Source of the DNA: an uncultured Alphaproteobacteria bacterium
GTDB taxonomy: Bacteria > Pseudomonadota > Alphaproteobacteria > Rs-D84
Length of the DNA: 64,000 bases
Direction of reading: 5' to 3'
Assembly (NCBI GenBank): GCA_951801825.1
Contig: CATOOF010000001.1
Span: 264,936-328,935, forward strand
Part shown: positions 16,716 to 56,645 of the stretch, piece after piece
How positions within the stretch are numbered: the first letter of the stretch is position 1
How the letters are laid out: the number at the start of each line of letters is the position of its first letter
The notes under the pieces: model-generated
Seen by the model: only the letters and a program-made list of their open reading frames with translations
Database searches by the model: none
Told to the model about the DNA's origin: nothing
Program-made: the position numbers and the translations under genes

Positions 16716-16887
16716 TGTATCAGCGTGTTGCGGATATGAGGCTTCTAAACCTCTTGATTCAGAGCGTACCAGCGTACGAAAATGGCTCCAAACTTGGTTG
16801 GAGGGGGTGAATAAATTGAATAAACCCGCTACTGCTCTGAAGGTAGTTTAGAACCTCCAGCCACCCTAAGTTTAGAGGGTGGTTTTT
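16716..16887 (+). ncRNA. Unrecognised structured RNA, copy A
   Basis: No open frame of note. Helices: P1 GAGG(C)TTCTAAA 16738-16749 with TTTAGAACCTC 16847-16857; P2 TTCAGAGC 16758-16765 with GCTCTGAA 16834-16841; P3 GTAC/GTAC 16766-16777; a hairpin CTCCAA/TTGGAG 16786-16803; P4 GGGT/ACCC 16805-16827 with the conserved A/T-rich loop ending ATTGAATAA. It ends in the terminator CCACCC/GGGTGG plus T5 (16861-16887). GGTTGGAGG (16796-16804) can also pair with the CCTCCAGCC just before the terminator, an alternative fold. The same architecture, with compensating base changes, is seen in copies B and C. Family unknown to me. Confidence 0.72.
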
Positions 16888-16902
16888 GCATTTATTTTTT
16901 TC

Positions 16903-16937: not shown

Positions 16938-17144
16938 GCACTAGTGATACTAGTGTGAGGCGTCTAAACCTCTCTTTCAGAGCGTGCCCGAGGCACGTAA
17001 AATACTCTTACCATATCCACATGGTTGGAGGCCAGTGATATATAAAAATAAGCTGGGCTATTTTTCTCTGAAAGCTAGTTAGACCCTCCAACCGCCTAAA
17101 AATATCTTATATTTGTTAAGATTCAATTCTGCGGTTAATTTTTT
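16938..17144 (+). ncRNA. Unrecognised structured RNA, copy B
   Basis: Tandem second copy. A 5' hairpin CACTAGT-GAT-ACTAGTG (16939-16955) precedes P1 GAGG(C)GTCTAA 16957-16967 paired with TTAGACCCTC 17079-17088; P2 TTTCAGAG 16975-16982 with CTCTGAAA 17066-17073; P3 CGTGCC/GGCACG 16983-16997; ACCAT/ATGGT 17010-17025; P4 CCAG/CTGG 17032-17056. GGTTGGAGG (17023-17031) faces CCTCCAACC (17085-17093). The terminator arms are AACCGC 17090-17095 and GCGGTT 17131-17136, then T-run. Every helix differs in sequence from copy A but keeps pairing. No gene follows in this orientation, so it looks like a free-standing small RNA. Confidence 0.7.
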
Positions 17145-17149
17145 GTCTC

Positions 17150-17340
17150 CTGGGATGGAAGGCTCTCTCCTCCGTCTTTTGGCTGGCAAAAAATATGTAG
17201 GGGCCTGTTTTTCCGTCTTCTCATCTCCAATCAAAGAAACGGTGACGGGCCCCGACCTATAAACACGATGCGTTTTCTATATTCTGGCCCGGTGGCACTA
17301 TCCTCGGCTCTGGTGCATAGCCGGGCCGCATTGCAAAAAC
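17150..17340. other. Intergenic stretch with two GC-rich hairpins, possible further RNA
   Basis: No credible coding frame. Visible pairings: GGGGCC 17200-17205 with GGCCCC 17248-17253, and GGCCCGG 17286-17292 with CCGGGCC 17321-17327, the latter enclosing GCAC/GTGC and possibly bracketed by ATGC 17268/GCAT 17328. Strand, promoter and ends are not evident. I looked for 4.5S, tmRNA, RNase P and 6S landmarks and did not find convincing ones. Confidence 0.3.
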
Positions 17341-56158: not shown

Positions 56159-56190
56159 AAAATCCCCGCCACATGGCGGGGTGTTTTTTT
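56159..56190. terminator. Terminator of fabZ
   Basis: AATCCCCGCC-ACAT-GGCGGGGT then TTTTTTT, immediately past fabZ and before the convergent small HTH-like gene. Confidence 0.9.
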
Positions 56191-56434
56191 ATTTCGCCTC
56201 AATCCCGGGCCAGTTGCATTTTGCCACCCTGTCCGGTGATACAATCCGCGTAAACAGATATAATTGGTACGCGGATATCGGTGCCTGGGCGTGTTCAAAC
56301 GCCTGGTACAGCGACCAGCCGATATGCATATTACGCGCGATCCAGTATGGGCTGATGTCGCCATTTCTGCGTGCGCGCCGCATCAGGCGGCCGATGGTTT
56401 CGTAAAACTCATGCTCTGTTTTTATGTGTATCAT
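56189..56434 (-). CDS. Small HTH-like (XRE-type) protein behind RNA copy C
   Basis: 81 aa from ATG 56434, with GGAGCG upstream. Sequence IGRLMRRARRNGDISPYWIA, then MHIGWSLYQAFEHAQAPISA and YQLYLFTRIV follow the XRE/Cro helix-turn-helix order (helix, turn at GD, helix, 'E-A-P' after helix 4), though divergent. It may bind DNA. It lies 23 bases downstream of the terminator of structured RNA copy C in the same orientation, so read-through of the RNA would include it. Confidence 0.5.
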   Translation of the reverse strand: MIHIKTEHEFYETIGRLMRRARRNGDISPYWIARNMHIGWSLYQAFEHAQAPISAYQLYLFTRIVSPDRVAKCNWPGIEAK

Positions 56435-56457
56435 TTTTCGCTCCATTGTTTTTAAAA

Positions 56458-56611
56458 TTAAAAACACCGCCTTGATGAAGGGCGGTTGGAGGTTCAAAAC
56501 TACTACGAGAATAGCGTTGCTTATTCAATATATTCGCAACCCTCCAACCGGTTGTGGAGTTTAAAGCTCGTAAGAGGTTTTGAAGCCTCACATCGGTAAT
56601 CACCCGATGCA
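56458..56611 (-). ncRNA. Unrecognised structured RNA, copy C
   Basis: Third copy, on the minus strand. 5' hairpin CATCGG-GTGATTA-CCGATG (56608-56590), then P1 GAGG(C)TTCAAAA pairing with TTTTGAACCTC; P2 TACGAG with CTCGTA; a weaker inner hairpin TCCA/TGGA; P4 GTTGC/GCAAC enclosing GAATATATTGAATAA; and GGTTGGAGG facing CCTCCAACC. The terminator ACCGCC/GGCGGT (56486-56466) plus T-run follows. P1, P2 and P4 all have base changes on both sides that preserve pairing relative to copies A and B; the P3 hairpin is lost. It lies directly upstream of the small HTH-like gene. Confidence 0.72.
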
Positions 56612-56617
56612 GTATGA

Positions 56618-56645
56618 ATTATATCAGACGTGTTAAGATATGCAA
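56618..56645 (-). promoter_or_regulatory. Promoter of structured RNA copy C
   Basis: On the minus strand TTGCAT (56645-56640), 16 bases, TATAAT (56623-56618). All three copies have a TTGC-type -35 and their own promoter. Confidence 0.7.

Follow-up and report, generated by a model that had tools for sequence, protein, structure and literature searches.

A candidate two-state transcription attenuator with a phage C4/sRNA-Xcc1-like core, upstream of an HTH-like regulator gene in an uncultured alphaproteobacterium

The window, a stretch of 64,000 nucleotides, contains a real structured RNA on the minus strand at 56458-56611, followed by a gene for a small HTH-like regulator (Table 1). All motifs listed in an earlier note on this DNA are found on that strand, including the pairings TACGAG/CTCGTA (its P2) and GTTGC/GCAAC (its P4), and the start codon agrees with the 23 bases given there as the distance from the end coordinate of the element to the gene. 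The RNA, 154 nt long, has a folding energy of -52.3 kcal/mol (z = -4.7), equalled by none of 200 shuffled sequences, and the window contains five occurrences of GGTTGGAGG, the 5' strand of the closing stem, versus 0.25 expected. Copies set side by side have the same order of parts: -10 box, H1, H2, a1, anti-arm, arm5, P4, P5, b', arm3, terminator, Shine-Dalgarno sequence and gene.

Table 1. Parts of the element and its next gene, with the two other copies in the window.
Feature	Position	Strand	Basis or remark
-10 box TATAAT	56618..56623	-	sequence
H1 hairpin GCATCGGGTGATTACCGATGT, predicted 5' end of the RNA	56590..56610	-	sequence; carried with changed pairs by other copies
H2 hairpin GAGG-CTTCAAAA-CCTC, with b1 (TTCAAAA) in its loop	56574..56589	-	covariation, 20 copies
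a1, TTACGAG (pairing part TACGAG), complementary to P5 loop a'	56567..56573	-	
Anti-arm CTCCACAACC, partner of arm5 in the terminator-permissive fold	56550..56559	-	
arm5 GGTTGGAGG, 5' arm of closing stem	56541..56549	-	
P4 hairpin GTTGC-GAATATATTGAATAA-GCAAC, loop conserved	56516..56540	-	
P5 hairpin, loop a' = CTCGTA	56500..56515	-	
b' strand TTTTGAA, pairing partner of b1	56493..56499	-	
arm3 CCTCCAACC, 3' arm of closing stem; last 3 nt double as terminator stem	56484..56492	-	
Intrinsic terminator ACCGCC...GGCGGT and T-run	56460..56486	-	
Shine-Dalgarno TGGAG of next gene	56441..56445	-	sequence
81-aa HTH-like regulator gene, downstream of element	56189..56434	-	ATG at 56434
Second copy, with -10 box and terminator of its own, not directly followed by a gene	16718..16889	+	R1 69.2 bits
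Third copy, in tandem with the second, no gene directly behind	16939..17141	+	R1 50.7 bits

The helices were examined in 20 full-length copies. Overall, 98.4% of cells are paired, a percentage biased upward because the copies were selected by a required H2 and b1-b' pattern. Of the 31 pairs, 17 are changed on both sides. The pairing and covariation of the set were not reached in any of 500 shuffles, and slid controls paired at 29-62%. These both-sided changes, together with the between-locus tests described below, are stronger evidence than the percentage paired. More locally, both sides are changed in four of the five pairs of P4, whose loop is more conserved than pairing needs, and in five of the six pairs of the b1-b' helix, which joins the loop of H2 to the strand before arm3. 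H2 itself is 98.8% paired, with two pairs changed on both sides, and in other copies it takes the forms CAGG/CCTG and GCGAG/CTCGC independently of arm3, which identifies it as a local hairpin. The long-range helix P1 of the earlier note is therefore retained in part. Since the best partner of GAGG is the nearby CCTC, only the TTCAAAA/TTTTGAA portion forms a long-range helix in all copies, and GAGG/CCTC as part of a universal P1 was replaced by H2; the computed fold T of the window copy (see below) does contain it.

The earlier note had taken this element for the third copy of a structured RNA family. The family is confirmed, and the element is one of about 48 members in its genome. The element alone, used as query, found 24 places in its own genome, the weakest at chance level. 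The covariance model R1, which was derived from 21 copies and covers the closing stem, P4, P5 and the terminator, returned 48 matches at E<0.01 in the 897-kb genome, a few of them overlapping within tandem arrays; about 48 copies in 0.9 Mb correspond to roughly one copy per 19 kb. A -10 box lies 60-150 nt upstream of arm5 in 42 of 46 own copies, versus about 20 expected after shuffling. The element was matched in 37 of 40 relatives, with up to 62 copies per genome in the genus, and in 15 of 190 genomes across the class, where matches outside the genus are weak (about 35-52 bits). The matches to the core pattern that bear a name come from MAGs of uncultured Alphaproteobacteria, among them Candidatus Enterousia intestinigallinarum; most derive from gut or faeces, and some carry the label Rickettsiales. 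They suggest that the host genome belongs to the Candidatus Enterousia group. The element was also observed on three viral contigs, two of which carry Mu/P2-like tail genes as judged by eye, and it may accordingly be prophage cargo or host flank there. On two viral contigs (L312:12104-12195 and L313:8519-8615), with Mu/P2-like tail genes by eye, it lies beyond the structural genes.

In its own genome most copies are followed by a Shine-Dalgarno sequence and a gene, typically 18-36 nt behind the end of the model, and a sizeable minority have no gene; for the most part these are orphans or stand upstream in a tandem array. In relatives, a Shine-Dalgarno sequence and gene stand close behind the terminator in more than 80 of 90 copies. 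The suggestion that the copy at 56458-56611 is alone in having a co-oriented gene is thus correct within the window and incorrect for the genome and for relatives. The downstream products are either small HTH proteins or proteins whose N-termini resemble signal peptides by eye; six of ten tested gave matches to HTH_3 or related Pfam families, some sub-threshold. A Pfam search of the 81-aa protein returned no match, and a homologue in the same genome gave a weak HTH_3 match (E 1.7e-4) that narrowly misses the curated cut-off. The earlier note had named absence of the element upstream of the HTH-like gene in relatives as evidence against its proposal; the element in fact lies directly upstream of the gene for this protein or a homologue (E<1e-5) at all eight of eight loci in three genomes, the window locus included. 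At an orthologue of 78% identity, both the a and the b helix have been replaced, with compensation. In another genome (L094:4837-4926), a nearly identical RNA with the same a and b sequences precedes a different HTH gene, which suggests that RNA and gene are shuffled relative to each other.

A kinship with phage-associated RNAs, which the earlier note had missed, became apparent from searches of Rfam. No family matched the element at curated thresholds. The window copy aligns end to end (model positions 1-87) with RF02221, sRNA-Xcc1, at 35.1 bits, below the gathering threshold of 53, and the same model finds ten places in the genome at 28-41 bits (best 41), all below that threshold. A hit to CRISPR-DR32 on the other strand (26.9 bits versus a gathering score of 48) covers the terminator region and was treated as chance. 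The secondary structure of RF02221 and, as compared by eye, its conserved inner-hairpin loop motif are both present: the RNAs have in common the closing stem, two inner hairpins, the strand before arm3, the P4 loop motif GAATA...GAATAAGC, a 5' half with complementary segments and a position before a gene. The P4 loop of the Enterousia copies resembles a shortened GAATACAA..GGGGAATAAGC of RF02221 copies. At E<=0.001, RF02221 itself was found in 51 of the 299 Pseudomonadota genomes searched, with 35 of these above the cut-off. The next genes at its loci include those for Bro-N, KilA-N, P22_AR_N, Phage_pRha (Rha) and SymE proteins, and symE is located behind sRNA-Xcc1 in Xanthomonas integron cassettes (PMC12444791). 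In many prophage RF02221 RNAs (L217-L246), a conserved terminator-like hairpin, CCGC-ACCCGNCAG-GCGG-TTTTT, is located upstream of arm5, between the 5' half and the core.

The P5 loop and the b' strand were scored for complementarity against the 5' half and the downstream leader of their own locus, with all other loci as control; a previous test by total duplex energy had been diluted by the GC-rich P5 stem. By this segment test, which was chosen after the sequences had been seen, a'/b' match their own 5' half over at least 12 bases in 42 of 46 own copies (2.6% between loci) and in 82 of 90 copies of other genomes (1.8% between loci). The a' segment reaches at least 7 nt with its own 5' half in 70% of own copies versus 6% of other-locus pairs. 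Against the downstream leader, a'/b' are at chance level, both in own copies (8.74 versus 8.57) and in those of relatives (8.71 versus 8.51), and a direct antisense action on the downstream ribosome site was rejected for the Enterousia copies. The 5' half is present at prophage RF02221 loci too, where 42 of 49 reach 12; here, however, the P5 loop and b' are in addition antisense to the Shine-Dalgarno region of the next gene in 24 of 49 (2% between loci). An example is L243, with RNA CTTGTTGC / TTTTCGG and mRNA CCGAAAA-GGA-GCAACAAG. In about half of the RF02221 loci the ribosome-binding site is thus a second target, which the Enterousia copies lack. The recognition sequences are diverse: 46 own copies have 43 different a loops and 31 different b sequences. 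Trans targets defined by the a+b rule were rejected, as no excess of sites was found in the genome outside the elements (298 versus 258-302 in controls). A general cross-talk network among copies was likewise rejected, because 13 pairs scored at least 13, against 8.2 +/- 2.9 in the control, and several of these are tandem neighbours.

C4 RNA, by which phages shut down genes of the lysis switch, is encoded upstream of the gene it controls. In phages P1 and P7 it comprises three stems with loops a' and b', is cut by RNase P at a GG and occludes a ribosome site (PMC5320573). As judged from sequence, the prophage RF02221 loci appear to follow this same logic, with complementarity to the downstream ribosome-binding site in about half of them. 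For RF02221, presented in the literature as an sRNA that acts in trans and has links to virulence regulators, this would offer a testable cis function, namely C4-like silencing of the adjacent phage or SymE gene. The Enterousia copies have in common with C4 (RF01695) the three-stem core, segments a' and b', the position upstream of a gene and the GG that opens the closing stem, seen in most copies at the start of arm5; they differ in that the target in C4 is the ribosome site and the arrangement here is terminator-based. The 5' half may correspond, judging by the name, to the 'c4-a1b1' motif. The RF01695 model gave no match at E<=10 in the genome and none at RF02221 loci. A 'c4-a1b1' motif is listed in PMC2864571. 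No paper linking sRNA-Xcc1 with C4 was found in a search of the open-access literature. C4-like Group 1 sRNAs of Acinetobacter baumannii, processed small RNAs whose targets were not known in that work (PMC5320573), similarly place many C4-type RNAs with a variable recognition loop in one chromosome, although they are not described as terminator-coupled leaders of adjacent genes. A sub-threshold c4-2 RNA (34.8 bits) was observed at L224:2890-2958 (-), on the same strand within a prophage with a P22_AR_N antirepressor.

The distinguishing features of the Enterousia copies are the terminator and the anti-arm. A terminator is present in 87% of own copies and 94% of those in relatives, versus 10-13% after shuffling, and its stem takes on average 3-4 nt of arm3. 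The anti-arm directly before arm5 scores 16-19 against 10-11 in shuffled sequence, and it tracks arm5 over three arm classes: the scores are 17.4, 19.8 and 18.8 with the arm of its own class and 8.6-11.6 with foreign ones, except for class II against the class III arm (17.4). In contrast, RF02221 loci have neither an arm3-overlapping terminator (6% versus 4%) nor an anti-arm (11.7 versus 11.6) beyond chance. In the Enterousia copies, then, conservation extends to two pairing partners of arm5 and to two uses of arm3. Computed energies, which leave out pseudoknots and kinetics, are -52.3 kcal/mol for the fold of the window copy with anti-arm and terminator (fold T) and -46.7 kcal/mol for the C4-like fold (fold A); before the 3' strand of the terminator is made the values are -42.5 and -41.5 kcal/mol, and over 125 copies the mean difference of 6.8 kcal/mol favours termination. 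This gives two predicted, mutually exclusive folds, of which one would break the terminator and the other would permit it. Two exclusive conserved folds, one with an intrinsic terminator, in front of a gene are what characterizes a transcription attenuator. As in attenuators and terminator riboswitches, terminator and antiterminator have a strand in common; here, however, a C4-like antisense core is the antiterminator, each copy carries a recognition pair of its own and there is no known ligand.

We consider that the element is probably a cis-acting leader RNA, working as a two-state transcription attenuator on a phage C4/sRNA-Xcc1-like core. In fold T, the a1-a' and b1-b' pairings would join the 5' and 3' halves and arm5 would be held by the anti-arm; arm3 is then free, so that the terminator could form and the gene would be off. 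In fold A, arm5 and arm3 would close the core with P4 and P5 and take 3-4 nt from the terminator stem, so that RNA polymerase could read through into the HTH or secreted-protein gene. We infer that the RNA changes between the folds in the cell, with fold T as the default, and that the gene is turned on by a core-stabilizing factor, which may act at the conserved loop of P4 or may be a matching RNA. Sequence and covariation support both sets of helices, the dual use of arm5 and arm3, the placement of the element ahead of genes and the lack of a ribosome-site target. The earlier note had left an attenuator and an independent small RNA side by side; the former is favoured by the near-constant gene spacing, the eight HTH-like loci and the exclusive folds that share arm5 and overlap the terminator. 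Counting against an attenuator are the gene-less copies, mostly in tandem arrays, which keep the structure and fit an independent RNA better. Moreover, as the overlap of arm3 with the terminator amounts to 3-4 nt, the closing stem might weaken the terminator and not abolish it.

That the element is instead an independent, trans-acting C4-like small RNA, with the gene read by leakage and its regulation incidental, seems rather unlikely. Its own -10 box and terminator and the orphan and tandem copies would suit such an RNA, as would the detection of sRNA-Xcc1, by Northern blot and RACE, as an RNA of ~88 nt (PMC2996969), a size close to that of the closed core, which would be compatible with processing; the near-fixed spacing of most copies before a Shine-Dalgarno sequence and gene, and the lack of excess a+b target sites, speak against it. 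A riboswitch, in which a metabolite at the conserved P4 loop selects the fold and commands a regulon of regulators and secreted proteins, is improbable. It would account for the conservation of that loop in excess of pairing needs, for the terminator overlap and for the occurrence of one RNA class before many genes of few kinds, as with second-messenger riboswitches, and it fits poorly with the promoter-like boxes of tandem copies and with a similar loop motif in prophage RF02221 RNAs, which follow a ribosome-site antisense logic without a terminator. Classical C4 action, with a processed RNA occluding the ribosome-binding site of the gene behind it, agrees with the prophage RF02221 loci that reach the threshold and is made very improbable for the Enterousia copies by their chance-level complementarity to the leader. 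Even less probable is a unit of the type III toxin-antitoxin kind, with RNA antitoxin, leaky terminator and small toxin gene: the order of promoter, RNA, terminator and small gene agrees, and yet short tandem repeats of the ToxI type are absent and the genes behind the terminator encode HTH regulators or secreted proteins. No ToxN-family nuclease was found behind the terminator, the Pfam results for ten downstream proteins being HTH, nothing, or one sub-threshold unrelated match.

A further reading, which we put forward tentatively and regard as doubtful, is that a phage immunity RNA of the C4/sRNA-Xcc1 type was domesticated and multiplied into genome-wide, RNA-addressed switches at some 48 loci. 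As each locus has a nearly private recognition pair, a matching RNA, whether processed from a leader, supplied by a tandem copy or brought in by an invading phage, could compete for the internal pairing and toggle a single regulator or surface gene. Should the attenuator reading hold, it would illustrate how a ribosome-blocking antisense RNA can be rewired into a transcription switch by the addition of an anti-arm and a terminator, and the genome would hold an unusually dense leader-RNA regulon.

Tandem arrays of three to five copies are located at C2:62009-62680 (L207), C2:82042-82560 (L215) and C1:472236-472728 (L209). Most of the copies in arrays have their own promoter-like box, and neighbours can have recognition sequences in common, as at C1:472444 and 472641. 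Behind the orphan pair of the window, at 17195-17275 (+), lies a hairpin GGGGCC...CCGTCTTCTCATCTCCAATCA...GGGCCCC. It has four copies in the genome, each of them following a gene-less element or the final copy of a gene-less array, and its loop CTCCAATC can pair with arm5 (GGTTGGAG); this hairpin may be a partner or sponge of the element.
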